Below are positions 1,079 through 18,855 of a DNA stretch of 64,000 bases, one piece after another. The notes below the pieces were generated by a model, which made no database searches, was not told the DNA's origin, and worked only from the letters and a program-made list of their open reading frames with translations. The translations under genes and the position numbers were made by a program. Origin of the DNA: Thiogranum longum (GTDB lineage Bacteria; Pseudomonadota; Gammaproteobacteria; DSM-19610); assembly GCF_004339085.1 (NCBI RefSeq), contig NZ_SMFX01000001.1, positions 1,005,227-1,069,226 on the forward strand. Reading direction: 5' to 3'. Every line of letters begins with the position of its first letter. The first letter of the stretch is position 1.

Positions 1079-2590
1079 GTGTGTGGCATAGTCGGTATTG
1101 TTTCAAATGGTGCGGTCAATCAGTCAATTTATGACGCGCTGACCATTCTCCAGCATCGCGGGCAGGACGCTGCCGGTATCATGACCTGCGAGGGTAGTCA
1201 GCTCTACCTGCGCAAGAGTAATGGTCTGGTGCGCGATGTCTTTCACACCCGCCACATGCTGCGGCTGCGCGGCAAGATGGGCATAGGTCATGTCCGTTAT
1301 CCCACGGCGGGTTGTGAAAGTTCGGCAGAAGCCCAGCCTTTCTATGTGAATTCACCCTATGGCCTGACGCTGGCACACAATGGCAACCTGGTGAATGCCG
1401 AGTCGCTGAAAAAGAATCTGTTTCGCGAAGATCTGCGTCATATCAATACGGATTCCGATTCTGAAGTATTGCTCAATGTGTTCGCCCATGAGTTACAGCG
1501 GCGTGGCAAGTTGCGCATCAATGCCGATGATGTGTTTGCTGCCGTCTCCGGCGTGCACCAGCGCTGCAAGGGTGCATATGCAGCGGTGGCCATGATTACC
1601 GGTTTCGGAGTCGTGGCATTCCGTGACCCGCACGGTGTGCGGCCACTGGTGTATGGCCGCCGTAAAAACAGTGAGGGCTATGATTACATGGCGGCTTCCG
1701 AGAGCGTCGCACTCGACTCACTGGGTTTTGAGCTGATCGATGACGTACGCCCGGGCGAGGCGGTATTTCTCGGTTACGATGGCAGTATCGTAACGCGCCA
1801 GTGCGCCGATCAACCATCATATTCGCCGTGTATATTCGAACACGTCTACCTGGCGCGTCCTGATTCCATTATTGATAATGTCTCTGTCTACAAGGCGCGT
1901 TTGCGCATGGGCGAGGCGCTGGCAGAAAAGATCGAGCGTGAACGTCCGCAGCACGATATCGACGTCGTGATCCCCATCCCGGATACCAGCCGCACGGCAG
2001 CCTTGCAGCTGGCCAATACGCTGGGCATCAAGTACCGCGAAGGTTTTATCAAGAACCGCTATATCGGCCGCACCTTTATCATGCCCGGTCAGCAGCAGCG
2101 CAAGAAGTCGGTGCGCCAGAAACTCAATGCCATTGAGCTGGAATTTCGCGACAAGAACGTGATGCTGGTGGATGACTCCATTGTGCGGGGTACGACATCA
2201 CAGCAGATCATACAGATGGCACGCGATGCCGGTGCCCGCAATGTCTACTTTGCCTCGGCTGCGCCGCCGGTACGCTATCCCAACGTCTACGGTATCGATA
2301 TGCCGACCAAGGATGAGCTGATTGCGCATGGTCGCACGGTGGAGCAGATTGCAGAGGAAATCGGCGCTGACTGGCTGGTGTTCCAGGCGCTCGATGACCT
2401 GGTCGAGGCGGTGCGCAAGGGTAATCCCGATATCAGCGAATTCGACTGCTCGGTGTTTACCGGTGAGTATGTAACCGGTGGCGTGGATGCTGAATACCTC
2501 GATCACATCGAGCAGCTGCGCAGCGATGCCGCCAAGCAGGACCGCCGACTGGCTGACCATGAGGTCATCGAGCTGCACAATAATGCTTGA
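1079..2590 (+). CDS. purF: Amidophosphoribosyltransferase
   Basis: This enzyme transfers glutamine-derived ammonia to PRPP to make phosphoribosylamine, the first committed step of purine synthesis. The N-terminus MCGIVGIV leaves Cys2 as the nucleophile of the Ntn glutaminase domain (about residues 2-235) after Met removal. The C-terminal phosphoribosyltransferase domain has the PRPP loop [13 protein letters not shown] near residue 365. Length (503 residues) is normal for the gammaproteobacterial form. The start is GTG at 1079, fixed by the need for Cys at position 2. It follows cvpA closely and is followed by the metZ leader. Confidence 0.98.
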
Positions 2591-2623
2591 CGAGAGACAG
2601 TAACGAATCTAATCTCGTCGTTA

Positions 2624-2680
2624 TTGCGCCGATTTGAATTCAGCTTGCGGGCGCATTATAAATCCGGCTAAAGCGAAGGC
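2624..2680 (+). promoter_or_regulatory. SAM-II (SAM-alpha) type riboswitch aptamer candidate upstream of metZ
   Basis: The region can fold as the H-type pseudoknot of SAM-II. P1 is GCGCC (2626-2630) with GGCGC (2650-2654). The intervening loop begins GATTTGAA and ends AGCTTGC. P2 pairs GCTT (2643-2646) with AAGC (2671-2674). The joining strand ATTATAAATC and the conserved-looking GGCTAAAGCG match what I recall of SAM-II consensus. SAM-II aptamers bind S-adenosylmethionine and switch off methionine-synthesis genes, mostly in Alphaproteobacteria. Position, strand and the downstream gene (metZ) all fit. The identity comes from reading, not from a covariance-model search. Confidence 0.72.
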
Positions 2681-2714
2681 GCCTGCCCTCGTACAGCCGA
2701 TGGCGGGTTTTTTT
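2681..2714 (+). terminator. Intrinsic terminator, probable expression platform of the metZ riboswitch
   Basis: Stem GCCTGCC (2681-2687) pairs with GGCGGGT (2702-2708), allowing G-T pairs, and runs straight into seven T (2708-2714). It sits just after the aptamer and 36 bp before the metZ start. The 5' arm overlaps GCGCC (2679-2683), which could instead pair with the aptamer strand GGCGC (2650-2654). That gives a plausible antiterminator when SAM is absent. Confidence 0.6.
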
Positions 2715-2749: not shown

Positions 2750-3931
2750 ATGCCTGACAACAAAGACAGATCGCCTGGGCTGGAAACCCTTGCAGTACGC
2801 GCGGGGCAGCACCGCACGTCAGAAGGCGAGCATTCGGAGCCGATCTTCCCGACATCGAGTTACGTGTTCGATTCGGCGGCTGCAGCAGCTGCACGTTTTT
2901 CCGGTGAGGAACCCGGTAATATCTATTCCCGTTTCACCAACCCGACCGTGCGCACATTCGAGGAACGCCTGGCAGCAATGGAAGGGGGGGAGCGATGCGT
3001 GGCCACTGCTTCCGGGATGTCAGCAATCTATGCGACCTGTGCCGGCCTGTTAAGGAGTGGTGATCATGTCGTGTCATCACGCAGTATTTTCGGCAGCACC
3101 ACCTTGCTGTTCACCAACTTCCTGCAGAAATTCGGTATCGAAACCACTTTTGTTTCGCAGGAAGACGTAGACGAGTGGGCCCGGGCAATTCGTCCGGAGA
3201 CAAAACTACTGTTCCTGGAAACACCTTCAAATCCGCTTACGGCCATTGCCGATATTCGCGCACTGGCGGATCTGGCCCATGCACATGATTGCCTGCTGGC
3301 CGTGGACAACTGTTTTTGTACTCCCGTGTTGCAGCGCCCGCTCGAACTTGGCGCCGATATTGTTATTCATTCTGCCACCAAGTATCTCGATGGTCAGGGT
3401 CGCTGTGTCGGTGGCGCAGTTGTCGGTTCCCGGGACATTGTGGGTGAGGGTGTGTACGGATTCCTGCGGACCTGTGGGCCGAGCATGAGTCCATTCAATG
3501 CGTGGGTATTCCTGAAAGGACTGGAAACGCTGTCGCTGCGCATGAAGGCGCATTGCTGCTCGTCCCAGGTGCTGGCTGAATGGTTGCAGGAACAGCCGAC
3601 GGTAGAGCGGGTGTTCTATCCCGGGCTGGCATCGCATCCGCAGCATGCGCTGGCCAGTACCCAGCAGTCGGGTTATGGCGGTATTGTGTCATTTGAAGTG
3701 AAGGGTGGTCAGACAGCGGCGTGGAAGGTGATCGACAGTACGCAAATCTGTTCCATTACGGCCAACCTGGGTGATGCAAAGACAACAATAACGCATCCGG
3801 CAACCACTACGCATGGTCGCCTGACACCGGAACAGCGTGCAGAAGCGGGTATTTCGGACGGTCTGGTTCGGGTTGCCGTGGGCCTGGAAACGCTGGACGA
3901 CCTGATAGACGACCTTCAGCACGGTCTTTGA
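2750..3931 (+). CDS. metZ: O-succinylhomoserine sulfhydrylase
   Basis: A PLP enzyme of the Cys/Met metabolism family that makes homocysteine directly from O-succinylhomoserine and sulfide. Family motifs are SRFTNPTV (PLP-phosphate region), ETPSNP, DNCFCTP and HSATKYLDG, with the Schiff-base Lys at residue 211. The 393-residue length fits MetZ, and purF-metZ adjacency is the Pseudomonas order. The ATG at 2750 has GGAG (2739-2742) upstream. A SAM-II-like leader and terminator in front suggest feedback by SAM. Close relatives (MetB, MetC, MetY) share the fold; the choice of MetZ rests on overall sequence look and locus. Confidence 0.9.
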   Translation: MPDNKDRSPGLETLAVRAGQHRTSEGEHSEPIFPTSSYVFDSAAAAAARFSGEEPGNIYSRFTNPTVRTFEERLAAMEGGERCVATASGMSAIYATCAGLLRSGDHVVSSRSIFGSTTLLFTNFLQKFGIETTFVSQEDVDEWARAIRPETKLLFLETPSNPLTAIADIRALADLAHAHDCLLAVDNCFCTPVLQRPLELGADIVIHSATKYLDGQGRCVGGAVVGSRDIVGEGVYGFLRTCGPSMSPFNAWVFLKGLETLSLRMKAHCCSSQVLAEWLQEQPTVERVFYPGLASHPQHALASTQQSGYGGIVSFEVKGGQTAAWKVIDSTQICSITANLGDAKTTITHPATTTHGRLTPEQRAEAGISDGLVRVAVGLETLDDLIDDLQHGL

Positions 3932-3950
3932 CTTGAGGAGAGTATCGACG

Positions 3951-4655
3951 ATGGACAAACGGGCTATTTCATATTTTCTGCCACTGCTGGCGGCGATGTT
4001 CTGGCACGCCCTGGCGCATGCTGAAGCAATACCGGTCGGCGACCGGGTCAGTTTTCACGTCGAGGCCAGTCGCGAGGTGCAGAATGACCAGGTTTCCGCA
4101 GTACTTCAGGCGCAAGCCGAGGATCGAGACGCAGCAAAGCTGGCGGATGAGATCAACCGTACCATGAGCTGGGCTCTTCAGCAGGTGAAAACCGGGAAGG
4201 GCGTTATGCCACAGAGCGGGAACTACCGCACCTATCCGGTTTATGAAGATCGCAAAATTGTGCGTTGGCGGGGTGTGCAGGAGCTGCATCTGGAATCACG
4301 TGATGTGGAGGCGCTCAGCCGCTTGCTGGGCAGCTTGCAGGCACGCCTGCAAATCCAGTCGATGCAATTTTCCGTATCTACTGGCACGCGTGATGCCATC
4401 GAGGATGAGCTGATTGCAGAAGCATTGGACGCGTTCCGGAAGCGTGCATCGCTGATTGCCAAAAGCCTGAAAGCCAGCGGGTATGCCCTGCTTGATATCA
4501 ATATCGGTGGTGCAGGCCGACCACCGGTTGTGCCCATGCGTATGGAAAGTGCCGCCCGGGTCAGCGCAGCATCGGTGGCGCCACCGGCGGTAGAGCAGGG
4601 TAGCAGCAGCATCAGCGTGCAGGTCAGTGGTTCGATTCACCTGCTGAGAGAGTAA
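3951..4655 (+). CDS. Periplasmic SIMPL-domain (DUF541) protein
   Basis: A 234-residue protein with a cleavable signal peptide (MDKRAISYFLPLLAAMFWHA, cleavage near AHAEA) followed by a SIMPL/DUF541 domain. The typical features are SFHVEASREVQNDQVSAVLQ, the pairing of Asp/Ala-rich helices with VYEDRKIVRWRGVQEL, and a C-terminal SISVQVSGSIHL strand. DUF541 proteins are periplasmic or outer-membrane-linked oligomers with no agreed function. I chose ATG 3951 over an in-frame TTG at 3933 because GAGGAG lies just upstream and the signal peptide then begins properly. It follows metZ by 19 bp and may be read through from it. Confidence 0.82.
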   Translation: MDKRAISYFLPLLAAMFWHALAHAEAIPVGDRVSFHVEASREVQNDQVSAVLQAQAEDRDAAKLADEINRTMSWALQQVKTGKGVMPQSGNYRTYPVYEDRKIVRWRGVQELHLESRDVEALSRLLGSLQARLQIQSMQFSVSTGTRDAIEDELIAEALDAFRKRASLIAKSLKASGYALLDINIGGAGRPPVVPMRMESAARVSAASVAPPAVEQGSSSISVQVSGSIHLLRE

Positions 4656-4685
4656 TGCGACCGGCGGTGCAGGCAGGGGTCCTGT

Positions 4686-5027
4686 TCAGTGCTCCTCGCA
4701 CAGGCTGATTTTTCCAACGCCCCAGCGCAGGAAATCTTCAAATGCCAGTCGACTTTTTTCTGACAGATCCATGCCGTCGGGCACACGTGAGATATTCACC
4801 GTGCAGGAACTGGAGACGGCGCGATCAATCTTGTCGCCATTATAGTGCGGCATAATGACAAACTGTCTGACCGTCTCGTGCTCGAATTCAAACGGACTGG
4901 AAATCTGCAAGAGATAATAGACTTCGCGCGAGGGGCCGGGGATTACCGCAATTCCTTCGGCAGCAACCGGGTTTTGTCCGGTGTACTCGTACGGCTCGTA
5001 GATTTCGAGGACATGTTGTTGTTTCAT
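4686..5027 (-). CDS. Hypothetical protein (113 residues)
   Basis: I do not recognise a family. The protein starts MKQQHVLEIYEPYEYTGQNP and is a soluble, acidic alpha/beta-looking chain with no signal peptide or membrane segment. ATG 5027 is preferred over an upstream in-frame start at 5084 because AAGGA precedes it at normal spacing. It is convergent with the SIMPL gene and divergent from the ferritin-like gene, with an AT-rich palindromic region between the latter two. Codon use looks like that of its neighbours, so it is probably a real resident gene. Confidence 0.6.
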   Translation of the reverse strand: MKQQHVLEIYEPYEYTGQNPVAAEGIAVIPGPSREVYYLLQISSPFEFEHETVRQFVIMPHYNGDKIDRAVSSSCTVNISRVPDGMDLSEKSRLAFEDFLRWGVGKISLCEEH

Positions 5028-5108
5028 AGGCTTGTCCTTCGATACGGTGCTTTCGAGCATGCCTAAAGTGGTCAGGGCTGTCAAAGCAGAAGCTGTAGAG
5101 ACATTACA

Positions 5109-5143
5109 TTCTACCGTAGAAATATATCATAACAACATGTTAT
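5109..5143. promoter_or_regulatory. AT-rich divergent control region with two palindromes
   Basis: The short gap between the hypothetical gene (minus) and the ferritin-like gene (plus) is strikingly AT-rich. It holds two perfect palindromes: TTCTAC-C-GTAGAA (5109-5121) and ATAACA-ACA-TGTTAT (5129-5143). A -10-like TATGATAAT follows at 5145-5153. These could be operator sites or part of the promoters; no known regulator motif is recognised. Confidence 0.35.
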
Positions 5144-5176
5144 ATATGATAATATATAAATCCATAATTTGGGGAA

Positions 5177-5992
5177 ATGATGCAGAACCTGTTCGACCAG
5201 GCTAAACGTTGCCTTGATTGCAGCGATCCGGTTGAGAAGCTGGCGCTGACGGCGCAAACATTTACAGCGCTGTTGGCCGGGGACCTCAGCCTGGAATCCT
5301 GTCATGCACCGCTGCCCTTCAGCGATGCCGGTCGTCCGCGTCGTCCCAGGCTGGTAGCGCCGCGGGCACTGCCGCGTCGCAGCCCGGCAAGTCGGGAAGG
5401 TCGTATTGCCCTGCTGCATGCCATTGCGCATATCGAGTTCAATGCCATTAACCTGGCATGGGATGCGGTATATCGTTTTCGTGGCCTCCCGGACCGCTAC
5501 TATCATGACTGGTCGCGTGTTGCCGCCGAAGAGGCTTACCATTTCCGTTTGCTGGCCGCACGACTGGCTGAGCTGGGCTCATCATACGGTGACATGGATG
5601 CACACGACGGCCTGTGGGCAACGGCTGCGCGTACTGCCCATGATCCGCTGGTGCGTATGGCGCTGGTGCCACGTGTACTGGAAGCGCGGGGACTGGACGT
5701 GACGCCCGGTATGATTGAGCGGCTGGACAAGGTTGGTGATAATGCTACCGTGGGGTTGCTCGAAATTATCCTGCGCGACGAAATTGGCCACGTGGAAATA
5801 GGGACGCGCTGGTTCCGCCACCTGTGCGCGCAGCGCCGGCTGGATTCCGGGCAGACTTTTCAACGCTTGCTCTCGGAATATATGCAGGGGCAGGTGAGGC
5901 CGCCGTTTCATTACGAAGCACGTCGTCGCGCCGGTTTCAGCGACAGTGAAATGCGTCACCTTGAGGTGATGGCAAAAAAGGATGGTAAGTAA
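5177..5992 (+). CDS. DUF455 family ferritin-like protein
   Basis: A 271-residue, all-helical protein of the DUF455 family, which belongs to the ferritin-like diiron superfamily. Likely metal ligands are in AHIEFNAINLAWDA (about residue 83), EEAYHFRLLAARL (about residue 118) and RDEIGHVEIGTRW (about residue 200), the spaced Glu/His pattern of a four-helix diiron bundle. The substrate is unknown; tRNA-hydroxylase-like or oxidase roles have been suggested for relatives but nothing here settles it. The ATG at 5177 follows a GGGG run. An uncharacterised secreted protein overlaps its end and may be in the same transcript. Confidence 0.85.
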   Translation: MMQNLFDQAKRCLDCSDPVEKLALTAQTFTALLAGDLSLESCHAPLPFSDAGRPRRPRLVAPRALPRRSPASREGRIALLHAIAHIEFNAINLAWDAVYRFRGLPDRYYHDWSRVAAEEAYHFRLLAARLAELGSSYGDMDAHDGLWATAARTAHDPLVRMALVPRVLEARGLDVTPGMIERLDKVGDNATVGLLEIILRDEIGHVEIGTRWFRHLCAQRRLDSGQTFQRLLSEYMQGQVRPPFHYEARRRAGFSDSEMRHLEVMAKKDGK

Positions 5993-6728
5993 ATTGATGA
6001 ATGCTGTGTTTTTTAATACGTTGCTTCGCAGGACAGTCTGTTATGTACTGTTTATTCCGTGCAGTCTGTCTGTAGCCTTGCCGTCAGTCGCTGAAACGCG
6101 TGCAACCGTACTCTGGTACCTGGAACAGGAAGCCGGCAACGAACCCTGGGAAGTGCGCTACATTATTACCGATCACTATTTACGCTCCGACCAGGGTGAC
6201 GGCAGCGTTGACTTTGTTCTGCTGGATCGTCGGGAGAAACAAATCTACAACGTGGTCGAGGACAGTCGAACGATTCTGAATATCGATGGTCGTGGTGAAA
6301 CCGGTAAACGTCCCGAAGCACTCGATATCGAGGTGAAGCGAAGTCATGACAGTGACGCGCCAACGCTGGAAGGCCAGGATTCCACCACACTGAAACTGTT
6401 CGCCGATGGAGAGCTGTGTTATTCAAGTGTGGTTGTCGAGGGCCTGATGGACGATAGCCGTGATGCTTTCGAGGCATTCGCCGATGTACTGGCCGTTCAG
6501 CAGCAGCGTTCAAAGGGAAATACACCAGCTGAATATATTACGCCCTGTTTCCAGGCGCGCTATTTATACAAGGCGGATTTTGATGTGGCGCTGGGATTGC
6601 CCGTGATTACCTGGGGGCCAAAAGGTGAACATCGTCAGCTGCTGCGTTACGAGCGTGACGTGGTGATTGATGATGCCCTGTTTGAGTTGCCGAAGGATTA
6701 CGAACAGTATCAGCCGCTGGCGCCCTGA
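5982..6728 (+). CDS. Secreted protein of unknown function
   Basis: A 248-residue protein with an N-terminal signal peptide (hydrophobic VCYVLFIPCSLSVALPSVA, cleavage near VAETRA) and a beta-rich mature part beginning TRATVLWYLEQEAGNEPWEV. Two Cys (in ELCYSS and TPCFQA) could form a periplasmic disulfide. It overlaps the end of the DUF455 gene by 11 bp, so translation is likely coupled. A second ATG at 5997 is an equally possible start; neither has a strong ribosome site. I recognise no family. Confidence 0.68.
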   Translation: MVSKLMNAVFFNTLLRRTVCYVLFIPCSLSVALPSVAETRATVLWYLEQEAGNEPWEVRYIITDHYLRSDQGDGSVDFVLLDRREKQIYNVVEDSRTILNIDGRGETGKRPEALDIEVKRSHDSDAPTLEGQDSTTLKLFADGELCYSSVVVEGLMDDSRDAFEAFADVLAVQQQRSKGNTPAEYITPCFQARYLYKADFDVALGLPVITWGPKGEHRQLLRYERDVVIDDALFELPKDYEQYQPLAP

Positions 6729-6734
6729 CTGTTC

Positions 6735-7460
6735 TTAAAGGGGCAGTGACTCGAGCCTCAGCCCCCCCTGCCTGTCGGCAAACAGTACACTGCCCCGGTC
6801 AACCCAGTCCCCAAGGACGATACGTGTGAACGGGTGTTGGCCCTGTTCAGCAGGGTGAATGCCCGGGCGGTGTGTATGCCCGTGTATCAGCAGGTCAGCC
6901 TCGTATTGCACCATGAACTGGATTACGGTATCCGGGTTGACATCCATAATGTCGTCGCGTTTGCCCAGGATAGACTGGCGGCTTTCAGCCCGCATCTGCC
7001 GGGCAAGTTGCCGGCGCTCCTGCAGGGGTTTCGCCAGTATCCGCTGTTGCCATAACGGGTCTCGCACCAGGCGGCGGATTTGCTGGTACTCGTGGTCATC
7101 GCTGCACAGCAGGTCACCGTGCATCAGCAGGGTACGGCGCCCATAAAGATCAATGACTGCCGGGTCTGCCGTCAACCGGCAGGCGCTGGCCTTAAGGAAC
7201 TGTTCCCCGATCAGGAAATCCCGGTTGCCGTGCATCAGTGTGACCGGGGTGCCGGCTTTTACACAGTGGTTCAGGGCAACACTGACCTGGCCACAAAGGG
7301 GTGCCGGGTCATCGTCACCGATCCAGGCCTCGAAAAGATCGCCCAGGATATACAAGGCGTCAGCATTGCCTGCCTGCAGGCCAAGCCAGTGAATGAAGCC
7401 GTCGATAACTGCCGGGCGTGCCGGGTCGAGGTGCAGGTCAGAGATGAACAGGGTGGACAA
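6735..7460 (-). CDS. lpxH: UDP-2,3-diacylglucosamine diphosphatase
   Basis: This enzyme hydrolyses UDP-2,3-diacylglucosamine to lipid X and UMP, the fourth step of lipid A synthesis, at the inner membrane. Metallophosphoesterase motifs are all present: ISDLHLD, LGDLFEAWIGDDD, HGNRDFL, MHGD and LIHGHTHRP. I chose TTG at 7460 because the protein then starts STLFISDLHL, aligning with E. coli MATLFIADLHL, and an A/G-rich AGGGGGG lies upstream. A longer TTG start at 7493 is possible. It lies downstream of ppiB on the same strand. Confidence 0.94.
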   Translation of the reverse strand: MSTLFISDLHLDPARPAVIDGFIHWLGLQAGNADALYILGDLFEAWIGDDDPAPLCGQVSVALNHCVKAGTPVTLMHGNRDFLIGEQFLKASACRLTADPAVIDLYGRRTLLMHGDLLCSDDHEYQQIRRLVRDPLWQQRILAKPLQERRQLARQMRAESRQSILGKRDDIMDVNPDTVIQFMVQYEADLLIHGHTHRPGIHPAEQGQHPFTRIVLGDWVDRGSVLFADRQGGLRLESLPL

Positions 7461-7499
7461 GAGAGGGTATGCCCCCCTGTGACGGGGAGGCAATTGTCA

Positions 7500-7997
7500 T
7501 CAATCTTCGACGGTAACTTTCTCGATAACGACATCTTCAGCAGGCACGTCCTGGTGTCCGCCGCTGTTACCGGTAGTGACTTTTTCGATGTCCTGTACAA
7601 CATCCATGCCATCGGTCACTTTACCGAATACACAATAGCCCCAGCCTTGTGCATTGGGTGCTGTGAAATTCAGGAAACCATTGTCCTTGGCATTGATGAA
7701 GAACTGCGCAGTGGCGGAGTCCGGGTCCGGTGTACGTGCCATGGCAATGGTGCCGAGGTCATTTGTCAGACCGTTGTCTGCTTCATTCTTGATCGGTTCG
7801 CGGGTTGTTTTCTGTGTCATGCCTGGCTCAAAGCCACCACCCTGAATCATAAAACCGGGGATGACGCGGTGGAAAATAGTACCGTCATAAAAACCGGATT
7901 TGGCATATTCAGCAAAATTGGCGACGGTAATCGGTGCTTTTTCTTCATCGAGCTCGAGCACGATGGTGCCCTTGTTGGTTTGCATCTGGACTTTCAT
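7500..7997 (-). CDS. ppiB: Cytoplasmic peptidyl-prolyl cis-trans isomerase B (cyclophilin)
   Basis: A 165-residue bacterial cyclophilin without signal peptide that catalyses X-Pro cis-trans isomerisation. Core motifs are [37 protein letters not shown] and [15 protein letters not shown], holding the catalytic Arg and the substrate-pocket Phe/Met/Gln residues. It lies between a secreted paralogue upstream and lpxH downstream, the latter within 40 bp, which suggests one minus-strand transcript. A good GGAGACAA-type ribosome site precedes ATG 7997. The ppiB-lpxH pairing is common in gammaproteobacteria. Confidence 0.96.
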
Positions 7998-8042
7998 GGT
8001 TGTCTCCTGGTGAATCCTGTTGCGGGTGGCTGCACGCGCAGT

Positions 8043-8660
8043 TTATTTGCTGGTCTCGTTCGCTGCCGGCGCAGGCACGGGTTGTTCAACGGTAACTTTT
8101 TCAATGACAATGTCTTCTTTCGGAACATCGCCATACATGCCGCGTTTTCCTCTTGGTGTCTTCTCGATGGCTTTCACAACGTCCATGCCCTTGATGACTT
8201 TGCCAAACACGCAGTAGCCACCCTGTGATGGATAGTCCAGCGCGGCATTGTTACCGGTATTGATGAAGAACTGCGAGGTTGCAGAATCCGCATTGCGGGT
8301 ACGCGCCATGGCGATGGTGCCCACGGTGTTGTGCAGACCGTTGCGGGATTCATTTTTGATCGGTGCGTGGGTAGGCTTCTTGACCATGCCGGGCTCAAAG
8401 CCGCCACCCTGTATCATGAAGCCGGGAATGACGCGGTGGAAGAGGGTACCGTCGTAAAAACCGGCATTAGCATATTCCACGAAATTATTGACGGTAACCG
8501 GGGCCTTGCGCCGATCCAGTTCAAGGACGATTTCGCCCTTGCTTGTCTGCATGTGAACAATAACGGTATCACCGGCACTGGCGGTTTTTTTGCCTGTGTC
8601 AGCATGGGCGGCTGTTGAGAGTAACAGTGCCCCAAGGATAAGTTTCAAAAAACGTGTCAT
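8043..8660 (-). CDS. ppiA: Periplasmic peptidyl-prolyl isomerase A (cyclophilin)
   Basis: A 205-residue cyclophilin with an N-terminal signal peptide (MTRFLKLILGALLLSTAAHA, cleavage after AHA). The catalytic core [18 protein letters not shown] is identical to that of ppiB next door. A short Pro/Ala-rich tail follows the fold. It is very probably the periplasmic partner of ppiB from a tandem duplication. GGAGC precedes the ATG at 8660. Its job would be folding of exported proteins; bacterial PpiA is usually dispensable. Confidence 0.93.
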   Translation of the reverse strand: MTRFLKLILGALLLSTAAHADTGKKTASAGDTVIVHMQTSKGEIVLELDRRKAPVTVNNFVEYANAGFYDGTLFHRVIPGFMIQGGGFEPGMVKKPTHAPIKNESRNGLHNTVGTIAMARTRNADSATSQFFINTGNNAALDYPSQGGYCVFGKVIKGMDVVKAIEKTPRGKRGMYGDVPKEDIVIEKVTVEQPVPAPAANETSK

Positions 8661-11352: not shown

Positions 11353-11429
11353 CGGGGTATAGCGCAGTCTGGTAGCGCGCCTGCTTTGGGAGCAGGATGT
11401 CGGGAGTTCGAATCTCTCTACCCCGACCA
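11353..11429 (+). tRNA. tRNA-Pro (anticodon TGG)
   Basis: A 77-nt cloverleaf including an encoded CCA end. The acceptor pairs CGGGGTA with TACCCCG. The anticodon arm CCTGC-TTTGGGA-GCAGG reads TGG, decoding CCN proline codons. It is the first of a run of four closely spaced tRNAs. Confidence 0.97.
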
Positions 11430-11479
11430 ATTTTTTTGCTGTCTGATGCGTCAGATGCAGATCGGTGGTTCGAGTTTTT

Positions 11480-11556
<77 letters not shown>

Positions 11557-11582
11557 GACAGAATGAGTTTGTAGCAGTTTAT

Positions 11583-11659
11583 GGCGGGCGTAGCTCAGTT
11601 GGTAGAGCACAGGATTGTGACTCCTGTGGTCGCCGGTTCGATCCCGGTCGTTCGCCCCA
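11583..11659 (+). tRNA. tRNA-His (anticodon GTG)
   Basis: The anticodon arm CAGGA-TTGTGAC-TCCTG reads GTG. An encoded extra G (11583) can pair with C73 (11656), the G-1 identity element of histidine tRNA. The acceptor stem includes two G-T pairs. CCA is encoded at 11657-11659. Confidence 0.96.
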
Positions 11660-11675
11660 TTACACTTTGCTATCC

Positions 11676-11751
11676 GGGCCGTTAGCTCAGTTGGTAGAGC
11701 AGGAGACTCTTAATCTCTTGGTCGAAGGTTCGAGTCCTTCACGGCCCACCA
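11676..11751 (+). tRNA. tRNA-Lys (anticodon CTT)
   Basis: A 76-nt tRNA with encoded CCA. The acceptor pairs GGGCCGT with ACGGCCC. The anticodon arm GGAGA-CTCTTAA-TCTCT places CTT at positions 34-36, decoding AAG. It is the last tRNA of the cluster before a strong terminator. Confidence 0.95.
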
Positions 11752-11760
11752 TTAATTCAG

Positions 11761-11785
11761 ACCCGCGCTTGCGCGGGTTTTTATT
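11761..11785 (+). terminator. Intrinsic terminator of the tRNA cluster
   Basis: ACCCGCGC (11761-11768) pairs perfectly with GCGCGGGT (11771-11778) around a TT loop, followed by TTTTATTTT. It directly follows tRNA-Lys and separates the cluster from tRNA-Leu. Confidence 0.9.
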
Positions 11786-11804
11786 TTCCGGGTATTTTTT
11801 GGGG

Positions 11805-11833
11805 TTATACTCGATTTTCCAAACCCGTATAAT
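11805..11833 (+). promoter_or_regulatory. Promoter for tRNA-Leu (and possibly tig)
   Basis: A consensus -10 TATAAT (11828-11833) is preceded at exactly 17 bp by TTATAC (11805-11810), a moderate -35. It lies between the cluster terminator and tRNA-Leu, so a fresh start here is required. Transcription may continue into tig. Confidence 0.55.
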
Positions 11834-11881
11834 CACTTGCTTGTGTTGCGGCCTTGATTAATCAGTACCTTGGCACACATT

Positions 11882-11966
<85 letters not shown>

Positions 11967-18695: not shown

Positions 18696-18771
18696 GGGTG
18701 CTTAGCTCAGCTGGGAGAGCGTCGCCCTTACAAGGCGAATGTCGGGGGTTCGATCCCCTCAGCACCCACCA
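18696..18771 (+). tRNA. tRNA-Val (anticodon TAC)
   Basis: A 76-nt tRNA with encoded CCA. The acceptor pairs GGGTGCT with AGCACCC. The anticodon arm TCGCC-CTTACAA-GGCGA reads TAC. It begins 15 bp after hupB. Confidence 0.97.
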
Positions 18772-18778
18772 AGGATAT

Positions 18779-18855
18779 GGAGCGGTAGTTCAGCTGGTTA
18801 GAATACCGGCCTGTCACGCCGGGGGTCGCGGGTTCGAGTCCCGTCCGCTCCGCCA
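18779..18855 (+). tRNA. tRNA-Asp (anticodon GTC)
   Basis: A 77-nt tRNA with encoded CCA. The acceptor pairs GGAGCGG with CCGCTCC. The anticodon arm CCGGC-CTGTCAC-GCCGG reads GTC. Only 7 bp separate it from tRNA-Val, so the two are cotranscribed. Confidence 0.97.

Follow-up and report, generated by a model that had tools for sequence, protein, structure and literature searches.

A probable SAM-II riboswitch with its own terminator in the metZ leader of Thiogranum longum

In the window, by which is meant the whole 64,000-nucleotide stretch of Thiogranum longum DNA analysed here, the 159-nt gap between the stop codon of purF (2590) and the start of metZ (2750) contains all of the sequence pieces from which a first-pass annotation had proposed a SAM-II-type riboswitch (Table 1). 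ATTTGAA is found at 2632-2638, GCTTGC at 2643-2648, ATAAAT at 2658-2663 and GGCTAAAGC at 2666-2674, each where it had been placed. The P1 helix is also present as described, with GCGCC (2626-2630) pairing to GGCGC (2650-2654), and is longer by the further pair U2625-A2655. Its loop bears GAUUUGA and GCUUGC, and the 3' tail bears AUAAAU and GGCUAAAGCGA (2666-2676). The P2 pseudoknot is likewise retained, but not in the register originally given (2643-2646 with 2671-2674); in the register homologous to that of the solved SAM-II and SAM-V structures U2646 pairs with A2670 and U2645 with A2671, leaving A2672 unpaired. An intrinsic terminator does precede metZ, as had been claimed, its stem formed by CCTGCC and GGCGGG with an inner TCG/CGA. 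Directly after its T-run a GCCCG-containing stretch (2715-2722), with counterparts in several relatives (L012, L017 and L024 among them), is complementary to the GCGGG of the falling arm (stem 2703-2722) and perhaps forms a structure in read-through RNA.

Table 1. Features of the metZ leader and its surroundings, with matches to RF02424 at other loci.
Feature	Position	Strand	Remarks
purF	1079..2590	+	upstream neighbour; stop codon overlaps -35 box; TIGR01134 537 bits
Probable sigma-70 promoter	2587..2615	+	TTGACG 2587-2592, TAATCT 2610-2615 (or TCTAAT 2608-2613)
P1 helix of SAM-II aptamer, 6 bp	2625-2630 x 2650-2655	+	GCGCC/GGCGC plus U2625-A2655
L1 GATTTGA, third strand of predicted SAM-binding triplex	2631..2637	+	U2633-U2635 in 98-99/99 copies
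P2 pseudoknot	2640..2676	+	2643-2648 x 2667-2674; U2669, A2672 unpaired; register by homology to PMC6061858
Outer P2	UC 2640-2641 x GA 2675-2676	+	
Antiterminator	2665..2699	+	2665-2669 x 2695-2699, 2673-2676 x 2689-2692, 2678-2680 x 2685-2687; nascent-RNA fold
Intrinsic terminator	2682..2714	+	2682-2687 x 2702-2707, 2689-2691 x 2698-2700, T-run 2708-2714; -13.3 kcal/mol
metZ, O-succinylhomoserine sulfhydrylase, putative controlled gene	2750..3931	+	NF006003 697 bits, TIGR01325 591 bits
RF02424 matches opposite SAM-II-like aptamer	window 2626-2697 (minus); L223 1533-1706; L228 1467-1640 (minus); L224 670-875 (minus)		

When positions 2616-2692 were compared with all of Rfam the best match was to SAM_alpha/SAM-II (RF00521), running end to end with a score of 32.4 bits and an E-value of 6e-6. 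The covariance-model check suggested at first pass therefore returns a clear match, but one that falls short of the RF00521 gathering score of 36 bits, a curation threshold and not a structural trait, so that a default annotation run shows nothing here. Other members of the same subgroup exceed the cut-off (42.1, 40.8, 40.4 and 38.1 bits). Across the 2.9-Mb genome the SAM_alpha search ranked the metZ leader first, followed by a metK leader at 31.2 bits, with the next best hit at 13.2 bits. A covariance model built from 19 aptamers, R1, gives the window copy 80.2 bits, its training set having included that sequence. Homology runs in both directions, RF00521 finding the window and R1 recovering the S. 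meliloti metZ SAM-II riboswitch with 27.5 bits and an E-value of 1.3e-5, where Rfam gives 85.2 bits. The plain folding energy of the element is unremarkable (z -1.2), as expected of a pseudoknot; the energy models used leave pseudoknots out. Two other families were rejected for the window, the long-loop SAM-II (RF01726; 13.9 bits against a threshold of 44) and Bp2_287 (RF02424; 20.1 against 70, on the minus strand), and the Rfam search gave no SAM-V match there. Two tRNA clusters, at 11353-11963 (five tRNAs) and 18696-18852 (two), are the only above-threshold Rfam matches in the window.

Structure conservation was assessed for P1 and P2 in 99 aligned copies. The two helices together are 92.7% paired, compared with 88.4% in shuffles and 26-49% in slid controls, and their double-changed cells number 57, where shuffles give 19.3 and none of 500 comes as high. 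P1 is 95.8% paired with double-sided changes in five of its six pairs, figures biased towards P1 by the use of a P1-containing model for the alignment; the compensatory changes are visible in the raw sequences (GCGCC/GGCGC, ATGCC/GGCAT, TCGCC/GGCGA and GCACC/GGTGC). The cells of P2 are 90.3% paired and mostly invariant, so covariation backs P1 far more than P2. Pairing of both helices is thus conserved in relatives despite the sub-threshold score, which leaves the assignment standing, its rejection having been tied by the first-pass annotation to a low score combined with a loss of P1 and P2 pairing. SAM-V binds SAM almost identically to SAM-II (PMC6061858), and the ligand-site positions were carried over from the SAM-V contacts (PMC6061858), the residue-by-residue transfer to SAM-II being our own mapping. 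The eight equivalents in the window, U2633-U2635, U2646, U2669 and A2670-A2672, are all kept in 96 of the 99 copies.

R1 detects the element in 182 of 369 sampled genomes of the Gammaproteobacteria in the sense of GTDB, which also take in the former Betaproteobacteria. It lies upstream of metZ at 40 of 80 named metZ loci, with one further weak case, in Thiohalobacter, Thiogranum, Ectothiorhodospira, Leucothrix, Nitrococcus, tubeworm endosymbionts and Gallionella; among these 80 loci R1 did not find it at metZ in Acinetobacter, Microbulbifer or Methylococcales. The gene downstream of 117 leaders is metZ in 75 and metK in 17, with metN (L033, L162 and L166), metE (L152 and L030), metF (L138) and metX (L148) among the others. 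Two of the metN leaders (L162 and L166) have a much longer loop before GCUAAA, and no terminator was found in them. In the Thiogranum genome itself a second SAM-II aptamer followed by a terminator stands before metK, the SAM synthetase gene (L002, G000:C1:388283-388355, minus), which settles the context of the element in the metZ leader. Directly after metK and before ahcY is a SAH riboswitch (RF01057, 69.2 bits, threshold 37; L222), so that the genes of the SAM cycle would carry a SAM-off and then a presumed SAH-on switch in series. A search that does detect MetJ, the repressor by which gammaproteobacteria usually respond to SAM, in E. coli found it neither in this genome nor in 19 relatives.

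On a MetZ tree, many forks of which are weak, presence and absence of the element need 13 changes compared with 26.7 for shuffled labels. This is suggestive of, and compatible with, an old trait lying deep in the class and lost many times; the same numbers and the deep spread fit a recent import from alphaproteobacteria less well. R1 also finds gamma-type aptamers on plasmids of Legionella adelaidensis (L226 1998-2057, 64.0 bits) and Paracoccus seriniphilus (L227 1500-1558, 66.1 bits). Their location on plasmids, in the second case in an alphaproteobacterium, is a hint of some horizontal transfer. A strict pattern of the element had no match in viral contigs.

The covariance model, the compensatory changes, the letters of the ligand site, the methionine regulon and the reciprocal recovery of the S. 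meliloti riboswitch together bear out a SAM-II-type riboswitch with a terminator before metZ, and we put the probability that the leader is a transcription-terminating SAM-II riboswitch at about 90%. In 83 of the 117 leaders P1 is preceded, 35-41 nt upstream, by TTGAC together with a suitably spaced -10-like box, and the promoter score is at least 9 in 73% of leaders but in only 4.5% of shuffles. A plain consensus scan of the window gave no report, the promoter being weak by that scan, so the case for it there rests on this conserved position, from which the RNA would be expected to start just before P1, near 2620-2622. A promoter just before P1 has likewise been described for alphaproteobacterial SAM-II (PMC1273637). 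With simple scripts of our own a terminator was found in 99 of the 117 leaders, its rising arm starting with CC[CT]GC in 82 of the 99, and pairing partners were sought for the 3' strand of P2, GCUAAAGCGA. In the nascent RNA a mean of 7.7 of the 10 bases of this strand are paired downstream, compared with 3.1 when the downstream sequence is shuffled, and at least four are so paired in 94% of 97 leaders. The resulting antiterminator is in many relatives a near-perfect pairing of GCUAAAGC with GCUUU[AG]GC. That of the window (CGGCU with AGCCG, GCGA with UCGU and GGC with GCC) is a shifted form of it, the terminator arm in the genus of the window having diverged from the common GCTTTAGC. Because both need the 3' strand of P2 the putative SAM-binding pseudoknot and the antiterminator are mutually exclusive, and antiterminator and terminator compete for 2685-2699.

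These features suggest a switch in which transcription, from a promoter that overlaps the purF 3' end, would begin a few bases before P1. With SAM scarce, GGCUAAAGCGA would pair with 2689-2699 before the falling arm of the terminator is made, and the hairpin so formed, by occupying part of the rising arm, would let the polymerase read into metZ. With SAM plentiful, P1 would form and SAM would lock GCUAAAGC onto 2643-2648 as the P2 pseudoknot; held there, the strand would be unavailable for the antiterminator, the terminator would form and metZ would be off.

A variant within the SAM-II reading takes the 3' strand of P1, in place of that of P2, as the antiterminator. The pairing of 2650-2654 with 2679-2683 put forward at first pass can indeed form, extending to 8 bp (2647-2654 with 2679-2686), and in the window its energy when taken by itself as a duplex, -16.1 kcal/mol, beats all 100 shuffles, but it is not the antiterminator that is conserved. 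It has a probability of about zero in the nascent fold, where local P1 and the hairpin of the P2 strand win, and its shuffle rank has a median of 0.12 among the metZ leaders, compared with 0.00 for the P2-strand pairing. As the antiterminator it would therefore seem unlikely, although it may help in the genus of the window. Less probable again is that the aptamer acts mainly on translation or RNA stability, the terminator serving purF or being constitutive. SAM-II of S. meliloti metA does work at both of these levels even though a terminator follows it (PMC9373788), and the 18 of 117 leaders that are without a terminator, metN leaders among them, would also fit such control. The ribosome site of metZ, on the other hand, lies more than 20 nt past the terminator and not near P2, the antiterminator is conserved, and the same terminator design follows the metK aptamer, where the upstream gene is a different one.

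Returning to the SAM-II riboswitch, its ligand is assigned from sequence, and riboswitch classes with changed specificity exist, so a similar fold sensing SAH or a different metabolite might be envisaged. We regard this as very improbable, as the sulfonium-facing U2634 and U2646 and the adenine and aminoacyl contacts U2669, A2670 and A2672 are conserved, the downstream genes serve to make SAM or to supply methionine, and SAH has a riboswitch of its own in this genome, in front of ahcY. Chance resemblance, or a conserved hairpin of the purF 3' UTR without riboswitch function, could appeal to the sub-threshold score and the unremarkable folding energy but is hardly credible given the genome-wide score gap, the conservation and the recurrence of the same element with compensatory changes at the unrelated metK, metN, metF, metE and metX loci.

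Compared with RF00521 and the S. meliloti metZ riboswitch, the element has in common P1, the P2 pseudoknot, the GAUUUG and UUGC...GCUAAA ligand site, the terminator and metZ as target; the subgroup of the window differs from RF00521 in P1 (GCGCC/GGCGC), a short outer P2, the consensus CAG[CA]UUGCGGGCGC, the sub-threshold score and the metK target. The pseudoknot architecture and ligand site are also common to long-loop SAM-II (RF01726) and SAM-V. The presence of SAM-II in a gammaproteobacterial metZ leader, noted as of interest at first pass, is real but less of a surprise than thought, since a 2007 paper had already recorded scattered SAM-II in gammaproteobacteria and, in alpha- and betaproteobacteria, SAM-II that is mostly linked to a terminator (PMC2258182). 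A later 199-genome study gave SAM_alpha only for Rhizobiales and Rhodobacterales, with metK not among its targets (PMC4239095).

The same study describes a betaproteobacterial 'metXZ' element, a pseudoknot with terminators before metX and metZ, to which no ligand is given there and which is counted apart from SAM_alpha (Leyn 2014, PMC4239095). As set out there, its six conserved regions, its pseudoknot of regions 1/4 and 2/6, its terminator and its proposed antiterminator fit the element of the window, a comparison made at the level of the description. In the open-access literature only its own paper was found to treat it. To judge from Burkholderia metZ leaders, it is probably the same element.

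A second published RNA occupies the same DNA before metZ and next to purF. The Burkholderia 'sRNA' Bp2_Cand287 (Bp2_Cand287_SIPHT), reported beside purF, metZ and metX (PMC3521395), became RF02424; RT-PCR detected RNA from one or other strand of the region (PMC3521395). It differs from the element of the window in having been modelled as an sRNA on the antisense strand, and in Burkholderia L3 is longer. Across the class every RF02424 match with a comparable position overlies an R1 match on the opposite strand, as in Burkholderia stagnalis, B. arboris and Caballeronia, where in replicons from a plasmid collection RF02424 matches of 201, 204 and 96 bits lie opposite an R1 match on the metZ strand. 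A search for RF02424 in the order of G227 (four genomes, probably not Burkholderiales) found nothing. On this evidence Bp2_287 appears to be a SAM-II riboswitch read from its antisense strand, and the Rfam family may have been built on the wrong strand.

We think it fairly likely that, where MetJ is lacking, many gamma- and betaproteobacteria rely chiefly on a large and for the most part unannotated SAM-II subgroup to sense SAM for methionine and SAM synthesis, that metXZ and, on the wrong strand, Bp2_287 are this same riboswitch, and that the 3' strand of P2 doubles as its antiterminator. If so, SAM-II, usually filed as alphaproteobacterial, would prove to be common, and might be old, across much of the gamma/beta lineage, where the standard threshold overlooks it, a ligand would be supplied for two orphan RNA elements in the literature, SAM synthetase would be a direct SAM-II target, and the P2-strand scheme would offer a testable model of termination control by SAM-II. 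Judged against the open-access literature, the breadth of the subgroup under the Rfam cut-off, the metK target and the strand evidence for Bp2_287 are new here; subscription papers may describe parts of this.

Some copies stand in less usual surroundings. On contig G347:C57 (L221) a tandem SAM-II (7993-8149, minus), of which the first copy has a terminator and the second is a variant that lacks it, precedes a gene for a MoxR-type AAA ATPase (6492-7949, minus), a gene context for tandem SAM-II of which we know no other example. Further downstream (within 3298-5196, minus) is a divergent SAM synthetase paralogue with all three S-AdoMet_synt Pfam domains. Tandem SAM-II as such is already known (PMC9481103). 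Genomes G264 (L177, L179, L182, L185 and L187) and G376 (L181, L183, L186, L188 and L189) hold 10 and 6 SAM-II-like copies, several of them in tandem. These adjoin non-methionine genes, with genes for an ADP-ribosylglycohydrolase, an ARPP-1 protein and a PD-(D/E)XK nuclease nearby, and the loci are possibly mobile or conflict-related.
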